From an uncultured Microbacteriaceae bacterium (GTDB lineage Bacteria > Actinomycetota > Actinomycetes > Actinomycetales > Microbacteriaceae): a stretch of DNA of 50,044 nucleotides. Below the pieces are notes generated by a model. That model was given only the letters and a program-made list of their open reading frames with translations, had not been told where the DNA came from and made no database searches. Position numbers and translations under genes: made by a program. The DNA lies in contig CALMSL010000148.1 in NCBI GenBank assembly GCA_937872445.1, forward strand, positions 1 through 50,044, written 5' to 3'. Every line of letters starts with the position of its first letter. The stretch's first letter is position 1. Positions 6,140-32,011 of the stretch are shown in pieces.

Positions 6140-6246
6140 AGCCATTCACGGCGCGCGGGCGTTTCCGTCGCGCGCCGGTGTCAAAACACCGGCGTTCGGC
6201 GCAATCACCCGCGCGGAGCAACGATCGGGTCGGCGCGCCGACGATC

Positions 6247-6408
6247 TGCCCACGGCGGCTGTGTTCTTTCGTTCGCGCGGGCCTTGCCCACGGCGGCTGT
6301 GTTCTTTCGTTCGCGCGGGCTTTGCCCACGGCGGCTGTGTTCTTTCGTTCGCGCGGGCTTTGCCCACGGCGGCTGTGCTGTTTCGTTCGCGCGGGCTTTG
6401 CCCACGGC
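6247..6408. repeat. Tandem 38-bp repeat, four full copies plus a partial, upstream of clpP1
   Basis: Units begin at 6247, 6285, 6323 and 6361, with a broken fifth at 6399. The core is TGCCCACGGCGGCTGTGTTC followed by a TTTCGTTCGCGCGGGC segment. Copies are identical except for one base in the first and two in the fourth. The repeat fills most of the 340-bp gap between tig and clpP1 and ends about 70 bases before the clpP1 start, so it lies in or just upstream of the clpP promoter region. No spacers, so not CRISPR. No coding sequence is credible here. Confidence 0.95.
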
Positions 6409-6481
6409 GAACATGGCAGTTCGAGCTCCCGCGCTCCGATAGATTCGACTCACAGCGATAACGGAAACGGAGCTCTACAGA

Positions 6482-14582: not shown

Positions 14583-14953
14583 CGACGTACCTTGACCCCG
14601 AGCAGGGTCTTGCCGTTCTCGCCCGGCTGGGGCTGCATGTCAGAGACGAAGGGTTGTTCTTTTCCGCGCTGGCCCGCCCGTCGACGAGCGCGTTTGGCAA
14701 CGATGCGTACGACTCGCTGGAGCTGAAAGCTGCGGCGCTCATGAGTTCCCTCGCCCAAAACCACGCCTTGTTCGACGGAAACAAGAGGACGTCGTGGGTG
14801 ATTGCGGTCGCTTTCCTCAACATCAACGGCTGGGATCTCAAGATGAGCGAAGACGAAAAATTCAACCTCATTCTTGCCGTCGCCGAAGGGCAGATCGCCC
14901 TGGAGGAACTCGCTGAGACCTTCTCTCGGCACTTGGTGGTGACCGCTCCCTGA
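14579..14953 (+). CDS. Doc-type (Fic-fold) toxin, death-on-curing family
   Basis: A 124-aa Fic-fold protein. The signature HALFDGNKRT (62-71) matches the Doc motif HxFx(D/N)(A/G)NKR, with the catalytic His and the phosphate-binding GN present. Doc toxins phosphorylate EF-Tu and stop translation, which the antitoxin prevents. GTG 14579 overlaps the antitoxin stop. No inactivating change is visible. The C-terminus (TAP-stop) lies inside the left arm of a long palindromic repeat, so the repeat supplies its last codons and stop. Confidence 0.88.
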   Translation: MTTYLDPEQGLAVLARLGLHVRDEGLFFSALARPSTSAFGNDAYDSLELKAAALMSSLAQNHALFDGNKRTSWVIAVAFLNINGWDLKMSEDEKFNLILAVAEGQIALEELAETFSRHLVVTAP

Positions 14954-15039
14954 GGACGGCGATGCCCGTCTCGAAGGGAGCATGCGAGTGACTTGCCGGC
15001 TCCCTTCGAGACGGCCCTTCGGGCCTCCTCAGGGAGCGG
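14943..15039. repeat. Long palindromic repeat element between doc and the M3 peptidase gene
   Basis: Left arm 14943-14981 and right arm 14999-15039 are complementary over about 39 bases, apart from an internal stretch of 7 to 10 bases. Perfect blocks are CCGCTCCCTGAGGA at the outer end and CCGTCTCGAAGGGAGC at the inner end, with a 17-base loop. It sits between convergent genes and can act as a terminator. The same sequence occurs inside ileS at 30783-30820, and CCGCTCCCTGA recurs at 15051-15061 on the minus strand, so it behaves as a dispersed repeat. Confidence 0.9.
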
Positions 15040-15061
15040 GGGAGCGGAGTTCAGGGAGCGG

Positions 15062-17083
15062 TTACTCTAAACCGCGGCGCTTCAGCAATGGCTCGATGAC
15101 CGCGTCGCGGCCGCGGAAGTCGCGGTACGCATCCAGCGCATCCATTTTCCCGCCGACGCCCAGCAGCTTCTCGCGGAACCGGTCGCCGTTCGCGCGGGTC
15201 AGCCCGCCGTTCTCCTTGAACCACTCCACGGTATCGGCATCCAGAACCTCGCTCCAGATGTAGGAGTAGTACCCCGCGTCGTACCCGCCAGCGAACGTGT
15301 GCGCGAAGTAGGTGCTCGAGTAGCGCGTCGGCACTGCCGGGTTGTCGAGTCCGACCGCTGCGAGCGCCTTCGCCTCGAACTGGGCAACGTCCGTCACCGA
15401 CTCGTCCGCGGTGATCGAATGCCAGGCCTGGTCGAGCAACGCCGCGGCAAGGTACTCGCTCGTCTGGAATCCCTCATTGAACTGGCGCGACGCCTCAAGC
15501 TTGTCGACGAGTTCCTGCGGCATCGGCTCGCCCGTCTCATGGTGCACCGCATAGTTCGCGAGAACCTCGGGCCACAGCATCCACATCTCGTTCACCTGGC
15601 TCGGAAACTCCACAAAATCGCGGAACACGCTCGTCCCGGTGAACTTCGGATACGTCACGCGCGCGAACAGACCATGAAGCGCATGCCCGAACTCGTGGAA
15701 GAACGTGTTCACCTCGTCGTACGTGAGCAACGTGGGCTCTCCGGCCGCGGGTTTCGGAACATTAAGGTTGTTCACCACGACAACCGGCTGTCCAAGCAGG
15801 TCATTCTGCCCGACAAGCTCGTTCATCCACGCACCGCCGCGCTTGGAGTCGCGCGTGTACAGGTCGCACACGTACAGCCCGACCGGCGAGCCGTCCTCAT
15901 TCGTGACCTCGAACACACGGGCATCGGGGTGGTACGCCACGAGGTCGGGCCGTTCGGCAAACGAAATTCCGTACAGCTGGTTCGCGGCGAAGAACACACC
16001 GTCGCGCAGCACACGCTCGATCTCGAAGTACGGGCGCATCGCCGCCGTGTCCACGTCGTACTTCTTCTGGCGCACCTTCTCCGTGTAGAACGCCCAGTCC
16101 CACGGCTCGATGCTGTGGCCGGCGATCTCTTCCAGGTCCTTCTGTTCCGCGCGCGCATTGCGGGCGGCAGGGGGCGCGAGCTTGCCCAGCATGGCAGCGA
16201 CGGCCTCTGGCGTCTTCGCCGTTTCATCTGCGGTCACGAATCCGGCGTGCGTGTCGAAGCCGAGCAGGCGGGCGCGCTCGGCCCGAAGCTTCGTGATCTC
16301 CAGAACCAACGCCGTGTTGTCGTGGTCGCCGCCACGATTCCCCCGCGAGCGTGACGCCGCCAAGATCCGCTCGCGCACGTCGCGGCGCGTGAGGCTCGCC
16401 AGGTACGGATGCCCGGTCGGCAGCACCAGGGTCACGAGGTACTTGCCGTCGAGACCGCGCTCCTTCGCCGCCTCCACCGCGGCGGAGATCTCGCCCGCAC
16501 CGAGGCCGTCGAGCTCCGCCACGTCGTCGAAGATCACGGCGAGGTCATTCGTGTCCGCGAGAAGGTTCTTCTCGAATCGGGTCGTGAGCGTCGAGAGCTT
16601 CTGGTTGAAGTCCTTCAGCTTCTCCTTCTGGTCGTCGTCGAGCCCGGCGCCGGCGAGCGTCATTTCCGTGTAGTAGCGCTCCACGAGGTAGCGCTGCTCC
16701 GCCGTGAGGTCAAGGGAGTCCAGCTGGTCGTGGATTGTCTTGATCCGCCAGTAGAGCTGCGAGTCGAGTTTGATGGCATCCTCGTGCGCGGCCATGCGCG
16801 GGGCGATCTGCTCCTCGAGGTCGTTCGTGAAGTCGCTCGAGTCGGAGGAGGACTTGTTGTAGAACACGCGGGCCACGCGGGTGAGCGTCTGGCCACTCTG
16901 CTCAAGAGGCACGAGCGTGTTCTCGAACGTCGGCATGTCCCGGCGTCGCGTGATGTTCGACACCTCGGCGAGCTGCTCCTCGAATCCTTTCTCAAACGCG
17001 GGCAGGTAGTGCTCATCGGTGATGTCCGCGAACGGCGGCAATTCGTAGGGGAGGGTGCTCGTCTGGAAAAACGGGTTCATCAT
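15062..17083 (-). CDS. dcp: M3-family metallopeptidase (peptidyl-dipeptidase Dcp type)
   Basis: A 673-aa zinc oligopeptidase of the thimet/oligopeptidase A/Dcp family, cytoplasmic, cutting short peptides. The active-site helix FFHEFGHALHG lies at about residue 463, with the downstream zinc Glu expected in DFVEFPSQVNEMW, and the substrate-loop motif YVCDLYTRDSKRGGAWM is present. The C-terminal TRYSSTYFAHTFAGGYDAGYYSYIWSE block is typical (described here in overlapping parts) and length is normal for Dcp. ATG 17083 is followed by a second ATG. Only 25 bases separate it from the divergent methyltransferase. Confidence 0.93.
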   Translation of the reverse strand: MMNPFFQTSTLPYELPPFADITDEHYLPAFEKGFEEQLAEVSNITRRRDMPTFENTLVPLEQSGQTLTRVARVFYNKSSSDSSDFTNDLEEQIAPRMAAHEDAIKLDSQLYWRIKTIHDQLDSLDLTAEQRYLVERYYTEMTLAGAGLDDDQKEKLKDFNQKLSTLTTRFEKNLLADTNDLAVIFDDVAELDGLGAGEISAAVEAAKERGLDGKYLVTLVLPTGHPYLASLTRRDVRERILAASRSRGNRGGDHDNTALVLEITKLRAERARLLGFDTHAGFVTADETAKTPEAVAAMLGKLAPPAARNARAEQKDLEEIAGHSIEPWDWAFYTEKVRQKKYDVDTAAMRPYFEIERVLRDGVFFAANQLYGISFAERPDLVAYHPDARVFEVTNEDGSPVGLYVCDLYTRDSKRGGAWMNELVGQNDLLGQPVVVVNNLNVPKPAAGEPTLLTYDEVNTFFHEFGHALHGLFARVTYPKFTGTSVFRDFVEFPSQVNEMWMLWPEVLANYAVHHETGEPMPQELVDKLEASRQFNEGFQTSEYLAAALLDQAWHSITADESVTDVAQFEAKALAAVGLDNPAVPTRYSSTYFAHTFAGGYDAGYYSYIWSEVLDADTVEWFKENGGLTRANGDRFREKLLGVGGKMDALDAYRDFRGRDAVIEPLLKRRGLE

Positions 17084-27082: not shown

Positions 27083-27320
27083 TTCGGTTGCGCAGCACGC
27101 GCGGAGCGGAACCCGTTTGGCGGTTGCGCGGGCGTTTTCATCGCTCGCGGGCGTCGAGGCACCCGCTCTCAAGAGAAACTCCCGCGCATGATGTCGCGCG
27201 CGTCTCTCAACACGTCGCCCTGCGTCTGCTCCTGTCGCCCACAGCCGACTTGAGCACGGGGTACTCCCGAATTCTGATCCAGGGCACATCACCACGGAAG
27301 CGAGCGGTCACGATGGGGAG

Positions 27321-28289
27321 ATGCACACCGATCCCGATTTCCTCATCAGGCGACGCGACCTTGAGTTCCTCGGATATCCGGACGTCGGATTGCGACGGGC
27401 ATTGCGTCGAGGAGAACTGGTACGTGTTGCTGCAGGCACGTATGCAGACGCCTCAAGCTGGCAGGAGCTTGAGCCCATAGAACGGCACAAAGCGCGGGTA
27501 TTCGCAACCGCTGGTCGATTGCGCTCGACCCCGGTCTTCTCGCACTTTGCGGCGGCCGCGCTGTGGGACATCAGAATCCTCGGGCAGTGGCCGACTTTAG
27601 TTGACGTAACAATGGAGCGGGCGACCGGTGGCCGATCGGACGGCGCGCTCCGACGCCATTGCACCGGCCTCGACAATGTCGACGTCGTGGAATTCGACGG
27701 ACTCTTCGTGACGTCTCCCGAACAAACTGCAGTTGATCTTGCGCGAATTCTTCCATTCCCGGATGCCGTTGTTGTCATGGACTCTGCGCTCTGGCGAAGG
27801 CGCAAGCCGCATCCGCTCACGTCACAGGACGACATCCTTCGGCTTGTGGATGCCGCAGCTGGGCGAAAAGGCTTTCGCGGGGCCCGTGCCGCCTCGCGTT
27901 TCGCCACAAGTCTCTCAGATTCGCCTGAGGAGTCCCACAGCCGGGTGCACATAATGTTGCTGGGATTTCCCAGTCCTCTGCTGCAGCACTGCTTTGACCT
28001 CGCACACGGCGGGCGCGCAGAAGTGGACTTTTATTGGGAGGAATTCAAGCACGTGGGGGAATGCGACGGGCGGGGCAAGTATCGAGATCCGAAGATTCTT
28101 CAGGGTCGGAGCAGTGACGAAGTATTCTTCGCGGAAAAGGGGCGGGAAAACGAGATACGCAGCCAGGTGCGTCAGTTTTCACGTTGGGAACCTCGGGAGC
28201 TTTATCCCCCGCAGCAACTGTATGACCGGCTGGTCCGGGATGGGCTGCCGTCGTCGCGACCCAGACCCAGGGGAAATCGCAGTCTCTAA
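27321..28289 (+). CDS. AbiEi-like winged-helix protein with DUF559/nuclease-like C-terminus
   Basis: A 322-aa protein. The N-terminal region (DFLIRRRDLEFLGYPDVGLR, RALRRGELVRVAAGTYADAS) matches the AbiEi antitoxin winged helix, and SPVFSHFAAAALWDI-like residues fit the AbiEi core. The C-terminal part (GGRAEVDFYWEEFKHVGECD, GRGKYRDP, EKGRENEIR) resembles the PD-(D/E)xK-like half found in many actinobacterial members. No AbiEii nucleotidyltransferase toxin is next to it, so this is an orphan, as is usual for this subgroup. It may be a regulator rather than an antitoxin. The 238 bases upstream (27083-27320) carry no recognisable feature. A hairpin follows the stop. Confidence 0.72.
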   Translation: MHTDPDFLIRRRDLEFLGYPDVGLRRALRRGELVRVAAGTYADASSWQELEPIERHKARVFATAGRLRSTPVFSHFAAAALWDIRILGQWPTLVDVTMERATGGRSDGALRRHCTGLDNVDVVEFDGLFVTSPEQTAVDLARILPFPDAVVVMDSALWRRRKPHPLTSQDDILRLVDAAAGRKGFRGARAASRFATSLSDSPEESHSRVHIMLLGFPSPLLQHCFDLAHGGRAEVDFYWEEFKHVGECDGRGKYRDPKILQGRSSDEVFFAEKGRENEIRSQVRQFSRWEPRELYPPQQLYDRLVRDGLPSSRPRPRGNRSL

Positions 28290-28310
28290 CGCGCGTGTTC
28301 TTGTCCTAAG

Positions 28311-28330
28311 CGGGTGTTGCAACACCCGCG
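28311..28330. terminator. Perfect palindrome after the AbiEi-like gene
   Basis: GCGGGTGTTG / CAACACCCGC is a perfect 20-bp palindrome 21 bases after the stop. It can form a GC-rich hairpin, without a T tract, and separates the AbiEi-like gene from the ileS leader. Confidence 0.6.
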
Positions 28331-28410
28331 CGCGGCGAAATTTCGCACGCTCGAGGGCAGTTGGGGGTCTTCACACAAACGCCAGTCAATTGATTCACCG
28401 GATGCGCGGA

Positions 28411-28654: not shown

Positions 28655-31600
28655 ATGACCTACCCGCTCTCCGCACCGGACGACGACCAGTCCGTCGAGC
28701 CGCTGAGCCCGAGCCCGCGCTTCCCGGAACTCGAAGAACGGGTACTCGCGTTCTGGGCGAAGGACGACACGTTTCGGGCCTCCGTGGAGCAGCGCGAGGG
28801 TTCCCCCGAGTGGGTGTTCTACGATGGCCCCCCGTTTGCGAACGGCCTGCCGCACTACGGTCACCTGCTCACCGGATACGCGAAGGACCTCTTCCCCCGC
28901 TTCCAGACGATGCGCGGCAAGCAGGTGCACCGCCGATTCGGCTGGGACACCCACGGCCTCCCTGCCGAACTTGAGGCCGAGCGCCAACTCGGGATCACGG
29001 ACAAAAGCCAGATCGAGGAAATGGGCATCGCCGCTTTCAACCAGGCTGCCCGGGATTCGGTCCTCAAGTACACGAAGGAATGGGAAGAGTACGTCACCCG
29101 CATGGCCCGCTGGGTCGACTTCGAGAACGACTACAAAACGCTCGATGTCACGTTCATGGAGTCGGTGATCTGGGGCTTCAAACAGCTATACGACAAGGAT
29201 CTCGCCTACGAGGGCTATCGCGTCCTTCCGTACTGCTGGCGGGACCAGACCCCGCTCTCGAATCACGAGCTGCGCATGGACGACGACGTGTACAAAATGC
29301 GGCAGGACCAGTCGGTGACGGTGACATTCCCGCTCACCGGAGAGAAAGCCGATGTGCTCGGGCTCGCCGGCGTCCGTGCACTCGCGTGGACGACGACGCC
29401 ATGGACGCTTCCCACGAACCTCGCGCTCGCGGTAGGCCCCGCCATCGACTACGCCGTTGTCCCCTCGGCGGATGGCGCGGCAAGCTATCTGCTCGCCGCA
29501 GATACGATCGCCGCCTACGCCAAGGATCTCGGCTACGACTCCGTCGAGGAGGTGCGCGCAGCAACGACGCGCACGATCACGGGCGGCGAGCTCGCCGGTG
29601 TCCGATACGAGCGGCTCTGGGAGTTCTATGCGGATGCCGAGGAGTTCGGCACGCAGAACGCCTGGCAGATCCTCGTGGCGGATTACGTGGAGACGGGCGA
29701 GGGCACCGGCATCGTGCATCAGGCGCCCGCCTACGGCGAGGACGACCAGATCGTGTGCGCCCAGGCGGGCATCCCGGTCATCCTGTCGGTCGACGACGGC
29801 GGACGGTTCCTGCCCGCCATCGAGGGCGTCGCCGGGTTGCAGGTGTTCGACGCGAACAAGCCGCTCACGCAGCAGCTGCGCGCCATGGGCCGCCTGCTCA
29901 AGGTGGCAAGTTACGAGCACAGCTATCCGCACTGCTGGCGTTGCCGCAACCCGCTCATCTACAAGGCGGTGTCGAGCTGGTTCGTGAAGGTGCCCGAGTT
30001 CCGCGACCGCATGGGCGAGCTCAATCAGGAGATCACCTGGGTCCCCGACAACGTAAAGGACGGCCAGTTCGGCAAGTGGCTGTCCAACGCGCGCGACTGG
30101 TCGATCTCCCGAAACCGTTACTGGGGTTCGCCGATCCCGATCTGGAAGAGCGACGACCCGGAGTACCCGCGCGTGGACGTCTACGGTTCGCTCGCCGAAC
30201 TCGAAAAGGATTTCGGGCGGCTTCCCGTGAATGACGCGGGCGAGCCCGACCTGCACCGCCCGTTTATCGACGAACTCACCCGCCCGAACCCGGATGACCC
30301 CACGGGCGCGTCCACGATGCGCCGCATCGAGGATGTGCTCGACGTGTGGTTCGACTCCGGGTCCATGCCGTTCGCGCAAGTGCACTACCCGTTCGAGAAC
30401 CAGGACTGGTTCGACAGCCACAGCCCCGCCGACTTCATCGTCGAGTACATCGGCCAGACGCGCGGCTGGTTTTACACGCTGCACGTGCTCTCCACCGCGA
30501 TCTTCGACCGCCCGGCGTTCAGCAATGTGCTCAGCCACGGCATCGTGCTCGGCAGCGACGGCCAGAAGATGTCGAAAAGCCTGCGCAATTATCCGGATGT
30601 CTCCGAGGTGTTCGACCGCGACGGCGCGGATGCCATGCGGTGGTTCCTGATGTCGTCCTCCGTCATCCGCGGCGGGAACCTCGTCGTCACGGAGGAGGGC
30701 ATCCGCGGAGGGGTGCGCGAATTCCTGCTTCCGCTCTGGAACACCTACTATTTCTTCGCCCTCTACGCCAACGCGGCATCCGCGCTCCCTGGGGAGGCTG
30801 AGGGCCGTCTCGAAGGGAGCAGTTCCGGCTACCAGGCGAAGCGCCGCATCGACTCCGCCAACGTGCTCGACCGCTACCTTCTCGCGAAGACGAGGCAACT
30901 CATCGAGGAGGTGACGGCAGACCTCGACGCCCTCGATTCCCCGCTCGCCGCGGCCAAACTGCGCGACTTCGCGGACGTCCTCACGAACTTGTACGTGCGG
31001 CGAAGCCGCGACCGGTTCTGGGCTGGCGATGACGCCGATGCGTTCGACACGTTGTACACCGTTCTGGAGACCGCAGTGCGGGTGGCGGCGCCACTGGTGC
31101 CGCTCGTCGCCGAGACCGTGTGGAAGGGCCTCACGGGCGGGCGCAGCGTCCACCTGGAGGACTGGCCCGACGCGAACGAGTTCCCGACCGACGATGCGCT
31201 CGTGCGCACCATGGACCGGGTGCGGGAGATTGCCTCCGCGGGCCTCGCGCTGCGCAAATCGACCGGCCACCGCGTTCGGCTGCCGCTTGCTCGGCTGACC
31301 GTTGTGGGGGAGAGCGCAGGGCTGACCGAATTCACTGAAATCCTGATGGACGAACTCAATGTGAAAGCGGTCGAGTTCGCCCCGATGGCGGAAGACGGTT
31401 TGGCCGGCTTCGGAATCACCCGTCGACTGTCCGTGAATGCCAGGGCACTGGGCCCGCGCGTGGGCAAGGATGTGCAGCGCATCATCCAGGCGTCGAAATC
31501 CGGCCAGTGGAGCGTCGACGGCGGCACCGTCACCGCGGGTGGCACCGTGTTGCTCGACGGCGAGTTCGAGCTCGTGCTGGAGTCGGCCGACCCGGCCAAC

Positions 31601-32011
31601 GCAGTCTCCTTCCTGCCGTCGGAGGGATTCGTCATTCTGGATACCGTGACGACTCCCGAGCTGGAGGCGGAAGGGCTCGCCCGGGATGTCATCCGCGCCG
31701 TGCAGGATACGCGGCGGTCGGCGGCGCTGAACGTCAGCGACCGAATCGACCTCCGCCTGTACTTCGCCGATCCCGCAGAGTCGGAGAGCGTCGCAGCGTT
31801 CGCGTCCGAGATTGCCGGCGAAACGCTCGCGACGACCCTGGAGGTCCGCACGGCCGCATCCTTCGACGGTACTTTCGACACGCTCGAGGAACTTGCCGCC
31901 GTCCACGGCGTCGGCGATGCCTACCGCGCCACGGTCGCGGCGGGCCAGTTCTCGAATGTCGGCGCTGTGCTCGTCGAGCTCCGCCGCCACGGAAAGGGGA
32001 TCGATGTCTAG
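28655..32011 (+). CDS. ileS: Isoleucyl-tRNA synthetase (type 2, long form)
   Basis: An 1118-aa class Ia enzyme charging tRNA-Ile. HIGH box is HYGH (67-70, [11 protein letters not shown]), KMSKS is 638-642 ([13 protein letters not shown]), the editing domain is between them, and CWRC (near residue 427) is a metal-type pair. Overall length and HYGH mark the eukaryote-like type 2 IleS, a form known for low mupirocin sensitivity. ATG 28655 is preferred to ATG 28646 because GAGGA (28641-28645) is then nine bases away and is sequestered by the T-box stem. Oddity: residues about 710-723 are encoded by a copy of a palindromic repeat. The stop overlaps folC by eight bases. Confidence 0.96.
30783..30820 (+). 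repeat. Palindromic-repeat copy inside the ileS coding sequence
   Basis: Bases 30783-30820 match one arm of the 14943-15039 element: CGCTCCCTG, one mismatch, GGAGG, a short variable part with a 2-base gap, then AGGGCCGTCTCGAAGGGAGC identical over 20 bases. In ileS it is read in frame as about 14 residues ([14 protein letters not shown], 710-723) between YANAAS and [11 protein letters not shown]. It lies at the junction between the catalytic core and the anticodon-binding domain. Confidence 0.85.

Follow-up and report, generated by a model that had tools for sequence, protein, structure and literature searches.

The window analysed here, a 50,044-nt stretch of DNA, contains ileS (28655–32011, plus strand, stop codon included; 1118 residues), an open reading frame that encodes isoleucine--tRNA ligase (IleS; TIGR00392 over residues 21–886, E 2.9e-242) and has relatives 54–96% identical over the aligned part. 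A 39-nt hairpin unit lies in frame within ileS (30782–30820, plus strand) and encodes 13 residues (710–722). The original prediction was of an extra segment of about 14 residues (710–723), derived from an arm of the intergenic palindrome at 14943–15039. The in-frame extra residues and their derivation from the repeat are borne out; the segment is one residue shorter than proposed, and it matches a whole unit rather than an arm, since at 14943–15039 two whole units stand as an inverted pair. Specifically, ileS 30783–30821 matches intergenic 14944–14982 at 85% over 39 nt, and ileS 30801–30820 is a perfect complement (20/20) of intergenic 14999–15018. The sequence GGCCGTCTCGAAGGGAGC with up to three mismatches has 3 matches in the window versus 0.18 expected, a number reached by none of 100 shuffles. 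Covariance model R1 gives the ileS copy a score of 50.5 bits (E 2.1e-9), the copy itself being among the 41 training sequences of the model. The fold of the ileS hairpin alone is unexceptional (z −1.57; −1.21 for its counterpart in the sister genome, G003).

The intergenic pair comprises unit 1 (14943–14981, plus strand; 54.0 bits under R1), a 17-nt spacer (14982–14998; pairs of this orientation have spacers of 9–20 nt), and unit 2 (14999–15039, minus strand; 57.0 bits; fold −13.7 kcal/mol, z −3.31), and unit 2 lies between convergent open reading frames. The TGA of unit 1 (14951–14953) is the stop codon of the upstream open reading frame, a putative Doc/Fic-like gene by eye; the convergent open reading frame beyond the pair (15062–17083, minus strand) is putatively M3 peptidase-like, also by eye. 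Adjoining the pair is a remnant-like arm sequence, GGGAGCGG...CAGGGAGCGG (15040–15062), recognised by its letters and having no R1 call. An Rfam search of positions 14700–15300 gave no match at E up to 1, and identity of the pair with an Rfam RNA family was dropped.

Other repeats are present in the window. A second, unrelated palindromic repeat of about 62 nt occurs at 27126–27187, 28289–28350, and 6153–6214 (copies 65–71% alike), and two such copies flank an open reading frame (27321–28289) with a sub-threshold AbiEi_4 match (22.1 bits versus 25). Tandem repeats are present at 6209–6436 (38-nt unit, about five repeats) and 1254–1381 (16-nt unit), and at the start of the contig a long low-complexity run rich in G (41–96) is possibly a reason for the contig break there.

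A family of hairpin repeats

The genome is a 3.06-Mb draft of 214 contigs, 96.5% complete, with an estimated contamination of 4.6%. It contains 36 exact copies of GTCTCGAAGGGAGC and no copy of the reversed control. Inspection of 30 copies, and then of all, gave the unit layout CGCTCCCTGAG-GAG-(variable inner hairpin)-GTCTCGAAGGGAGC. The unit is an imperfect hairpin of 39–45 nt in which the arms GCTCCCT/AGGGAGC and the inner step GAGG/TCTC are conserved and the inner hairpin is interchangeable. In an alignment of 41 distinct units, all from this genome, the 17-pair hairpin has 95.0% of cells paired (86.9% in shuffled alignments) and a covariation score of 0.217, a value reached by 0 of 500 shuffles, compared with 0.090 for shuffled alignments and 0.022–0.053 with the partners slid. 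The count of pairs changed on both sides is less striking (6, a number reached by 18 of 500 shuffles). Folded singly, the consensus has a z of −2.94 and the intergenic copies have −2.86 and −3.31.

Model R1, built on this alignment, identifies at least 101 units in the genome at E up to 0.01, 41 of them training sequences; the number is a lower bound because 150 of 4767 candidates were scored. The units are mostly 37–44 nt long under R1 (34 of 38 nt, 25 of 42 nt, 15 of 40 nt, and 13 of 41 nt; five are 26 nt and one is 48 nt). Counting neighbours no more than 60 nt apart, there are 27 inverted pairs and 8 direct pairs, and 35 units are single. In the 5′ flank only position −1 is conserved, with C in 76% of 100 units, so that the commonest form of the unit, 38 nt plus this C, is 39 nt; the 3′ flank is weakly conserved around CC.GT.AC.

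R1 also identifies units in relatives: 54 in G003, 60 in G001, 15 in G002, 10 in G004, 7 in G006, and none in G005 or G007. At E up to 1e-5, 13 genomes out of 199 from the bacterial family have matches. Among named genomes, the exact-arm pattern occurs in 34 stretches: 22 in Janibacter species, 10 in JAFKIY01 (the metagenome-assembled genome Micrococcales bacterium SCN18_25_1_16_R5_B_65_20), and 2 in JAHBST01 (Cryobacterium sp. ACE_ACT7). The core pattern TGAGGAG..GTCTCGAA is present in 29 of 297 Micrococcales genomes and its reversed control in 11, so single matches to it are chance; five or more matches are present only in the genome under study (G000), G265, G280, and G371. The aspartate--tRNA(Asn) ligase AspS of G002 carries PLPEEAAGRLEGS. 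In Janibacter, too, units occur in coding-like frames, and two loci (L145 and L158) have in-frame units (TLPEEFAQQASRRES and TLPEELAQQASRREP) in a gene that by eye is putatively cobyrinate synthase-like. These matches place the repeat family in Janibacter and in one Microbacteriaceae-like genus, a patchy spread over two bacterial families that would suggest transfer or many losses.

In-frame copies and their ages

All 101 units were placed in loci, and open frames across them were scored for coding likeness. This gave 28 coding-like open reading frames, of which 13 were accepted as hosts (24 units) and 15 were dropped: one antisense (L020), one with a doubtful 30.3-bit match (L128), and the rest with the unit at an end or with no homology across it. 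Counting each open reading frame that crosses a unit as a host was rejected, and 77 units were counted as non-genic. Homology is present on both sides of the unit in 11 genes with 21 units, encoding IleS, TrmD, GcvP, Mfd, PheT (3 units at 2 sites), MshD (3 units), HrpA (3 units), an MsbA-like ABC exporter (2 units), DnaX (2 units), an ABC-F ATPase (2 units), and a DEAD helicase with DUF3516 (2 units). The two weaker hosts, Nei/Fpg-like (L024, 2 units) and HerA-like helicase (L080, 1 unit), have a family match on one side only. IleS, PheT, TrmD, and DnaX are generally known as essential proteins. The solved GcvP nearest in sequence lacks about 12 residues of the insert region, and the best match among solved structures for MshD, the Mycobacterium tuberculosis protein, aligns as two stretches flanking the insert. 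A further segment in HrpA (L029, near 2663), VPLADKAEGRLEGG, is matched by a loose pattern and not by R1, and may be an old decayed unit.

One reading frame dominates among the genic units that lie on the same strand as their host. The TGA in CCCTGAGG shuts one of the three forward frames; another, with a basic product (RSLRR...), is hardly used, and the remaining frame reads xLPEE...RLEGS. Fifteen of 16 same-strand genic units read xLPEE..RLEGS (42-nt units start alike) and the remaining one reads RSLRRPKAVSKGA. In addition, all 9 single same-strand genic units have a length of 2 mod 3, as do 38 of 77 non-genic units, so that these genic units, with the leading C, are 3n nt long ("single" is defined by R1; Mfd and DnaX also have partial arms nearby). 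The p-values for frame (binomial against two open frames, 2.6e-4; about 9e-4, by hand, for the 13 of 14 units left without the Nei/Fpg-like and HerA-like hosts) and for length (0.003) are optimistic, because units clustered within one gene are not independent. The eight reverse-strand genic units use all three frames (5 xLRD, 2 xFET, 1 PSRR).

A search of 149 genomes, this one included, found IleS in every one, and the best 30 of the 149 loci were used for comparison. Among the 29 aligned relatives, the insert is present only in sister G003 (IleS 96% identical), where it is near-consensus (PLPEEAEDRLEGS, 57.0 bits under R1); it is absent in the next relatives, G006, G007, G005, and G004. The contig of G002 starts past the site (IleS match from residue 757), which places this genome outside the comparison. 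The stretch from Tyr704 to Ser734 comprises 29 residues in G000 and G003 and 11–25 residues (median 14) in 27 other relatives (L049, which has an in-frame TGA, was excluded from the lengths; no insert is seen in its alignment). The expectation that other IleS proteins have no residues here therefore needs correction. Among the aligned relatives the 13-residue insert is confined to the sister pair, and a segment shared by all relatives with unrelated DNA is not seen. These lengths indicate that the insertion entered a linker that varies in any case; it is probably tolerated because the site is such a linker, and part of the linker length could have another origin. An AlphaFold model of IleS (29 sequences) is of little use, its mean pLDDT being 57.4 with 500 of 1118 residues below 50; residues 706–724 are predicted as coil (pLDDT below 50), which agrees with a flexible linker and is no demonstration of one.

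Comparison of other hosts across the genus points to insertions of different ages. A tree from GcvP, PheT, ABC-F, and TrmD has the topology (G006,(G002,(G000,G003))), with local supports of 0.995–1.000. At PheT site 1 the unit is present in G000 only, and sister G003 is 54 nt shorter. The TrmD insert is present in G000 and G003 and absent in G002, G004, G005, G006, and G007. The GcvP insert is present in G000 and G003, not in G006, and uncertain in G002 and others. PheT site 2 is occupied by a pair in the two sisters, G000 and G003, by a shorter APLPEGAAGRPEES in G002, and by other residues elsewhere (PheT was not found in G005). The ABC-F site has 15 codons in G000 and 13 in G003, where the inner hairpin is a different one; the form in G002 is decayed, and G004–G008 have no insert. 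Only for ABC-F is the reading of the G002 segments as decayed copies firm; it is fair for PheT and weak for GcvP, because at the loops of GcvP, PheT site 2, and G001 the segments in other relatives vary in length and are unrelated or uncertain. The simplest reading of these empty sites and the tree is that insertions followed one another once G006 had split off; at PheT site 1, loss in G003 is a possible alternative.

At the TrmD loop, two lineages have received insertions independently: in G001 TrmD (L166) the same loop holds a repeat with different arms, TGCTGGTTGAGGAG..GTCTCGAAACCAGC, together with its inverted partner. The TrmD of the genome under study (L114/L163) also has about 9 extra residues before the unit (DPLSSAPRGDGDPLPEE), absent in G003, and GATCCGCTC is repeated there. 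As insertions in the same genes are absent, fresh, shared, or decayed, the path from hairpin to protein segment can be followed.

Origin of the ileS segment

We are highly confident that the ileS segment belongs, as one of many copies, to a REP-like miniature repeat that has been inserted at new sites and kept in a tolerated frame and in tolerated loops. A unit, single or in an inverted pair, would enter new sites, mostly between genes. Within a gene, the xLPEE...RLEGS frame would give a soluble proline/glutamate/glycine peptide; insertions into a surface loop or linker in this frame would survive selection, which would act as a purifying filter, and others would be lost. The ileS copy would have entered the variable linker that joins the catalytic core to the anticodon-binding domain, at a time before G000 and G003 diverged. 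The predicted mobility of the palindrome gains support from the genome-wide repeat, the copy shared with G003, the empty sites of the next relatives, the dozen other host genes, and the PheT site 1 copy that the sister lacks. The scattered copies and the empty sites argue for movement; no transposase was found and no copy was seen moving. The 13-residue peptide is evidently tolerated by the host proteins and may well be neutral.

A possible, though clearly less probable, account is that the repeat spread by gene conversion or by template switching between hairpins in replication, the genic copies being carried in this way. Such a process would fit the lack of a Y1 transposase in a 96.5%-complete genome, although a transposase may be missing from the assembly or unrecognised, and it would fit an ABC-F site at which the inner hairpin spans 15 codons in G000 and 13 in G003. 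However, conversion needs a resident copy and does not alone explain how an empty site, PheT site 1 for example, came to be occupied. The same ABC-F difference raises the possibility, which we consider unlikely, that genic copies, those in essential genes included, stay live: exchange with other copies would replace their inner hairpin on the spot, by whole codons, and the mobile family would continually supply the core proteome with a standard loop peptide of 13 to 15 residues and edit it there.

It is improbable that xLPEE..RLEGS is a selected protein module that benefits its hosts beyond mere tolerance, for example as a flexible spacer. The dominance of one frame (15/16) would fit such a module, as would the G002 ABC-F protein, and less clearly PheT and GcvP, in which a related peptide is kept though the DNA palindrome has decayed. 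However, the host proteins are functionally unrelated, the reverse-strand units use all three frames, and the ileS insert differs between G000 and G003 at 3 of 13 residues, compared with 42 of 1105 in the rest of IleS, which, in small numbers, suggests relaxed constraint.

Growth of the ileS linker by ordinary slippage, with an accidental resemblance to the repeat, has a negligible probability: linker lengths do vary among the 27 other relatives, and an unrelated form of 25 residues is seen in L051, but the window shuffles, the 36 core copies against none in the control, and the R1 E-value led us to reject a chance match, the sister copy is closer to the consensus, and the same peptide recurs in many unrelated genes. 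An assembly or binning artefact, conceivable in a fragmented draft with 4.6% contamination, is just as improbable: the window contig and G003 agree, the G003 assembly having the same ileS and TrmD inserts, and related copies are present in G001, G002, and Janibacter isolates.

The preferred reading, insertion of a miniature repeat followed by selective retention, would extend in-frame invasion by palindromes to a Gram-positive actinobacterial lineage with ordinary genomes (1.9–3.1 Mb in the genus); given these genome sizes, such invasion is not peculiar to intracellular bacteria. It also carries a warning for annotation: a recurring xLPEE..RLEGS in unrelated proteins is derived from the repeat and is not a shared domain.

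Relation to known palindromic repeats

The units have the general features of repetitive extragenic palindromes (REPs), a class of high-copy palindromes of 20–40 bp, in that they occur singly and as inverted dimers and lie mostly between genes. Repeats of the GTAG and CGTC super-families (Di Nocera et al. 2013) are described as 20–40-bp hairpins, high in copy, single or in inverted dimers, and mostly intergenic, and can give flanking open reading frames their stop codons (PMC3733652). The units described here resemble them as short high-copy hairpins, in their singles and inverted dimers, in the presence of some copies in genes, and in supplying a stop codon. They differ at the foot of the hairpin, where an unpaired GTAG or CGTC tag is lacking (CGTC is internal only), and in the stem, which is interrupted, has 17 bp, and carries an inner hairpin that is interchangeable. 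MITEs are marked by terminal inverted repeats, a target-site duplication, and a parent insertion sequence. In the units here the arms are inverted repeats; PheT site 1, with diverged flanks, shows no evident target duplication, and the search for a parent element covered PF01797.

The units share the hairpin and the paired arrangement with REPs mobilised by RAYTs (IS200/IS605-type tyrosine transposases), but no such gene was detected: a profile search of this genome for Y1_Tnp (PF01797) gave no match, with the control positive in 5 of 14 genomes. A RAYT origin was rejected on this search of the one genome, in which a Y1 gene may have been missed because the assembly is 96.5% complete. Other Micrococcales repeats, as described from their letters, have the same core TGAGGAG..GTCTCGAA and a variable inner hairpin; the arms are different in the G001 repeat (GGTGGTTGAGGAG..GTCTCGAAACCACC) and the same in the Janibacter repeat. 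We found no paper on either.

Rickettsia palindromic elements (RPEs), the parallel named in the original prediction, are described as palindromes of about 150 bp in ten families, each with its own peptides, inserted in frame in unrelated genes, essential ones included, and between genes (PMC10969869; PMC3733652). The kinship holds for the in-frame palindromes inside protein genes (21 units in 11 genes here), for the variety of unrelated and essential hosts, and for the copies between genes. It does not extend to the sequence: compared with RPEs as known from these descriptions, the unit here is 39–45 nt, belongs to Actinomycetota (Micrococcales), and is unrelated in sequence to the roughly 150-bp Rickettsia families. 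RPE-4 and RPE-6 have been classed as CGTC REPs (PMC3733652), and the unit here is without the terminal CGTC.

Insertion of a palindrome into an essential gene had been predicted to be rare. The ileS insertion is real, but it is not isolated in this genome, and rarity is further tempered by the intragenic GTAG/CGTC REPs described in several other phyla, many in DNA repair genes and others in genes for RNA helicases and some tRNA synthetases (PMC3733652). The main text of that survey does not contain the word Actinobacteria, and our literature search, mostly of titles and abstracts, found no report of this repeat family or of intragenic REPs in Actinobacteria. Since intragenic REPs and RPEs have been described (PMC3733652; PMC10969869), the phenomenon of intragenic palindromes is already known; what is new is the family, the lineage, and the structure.
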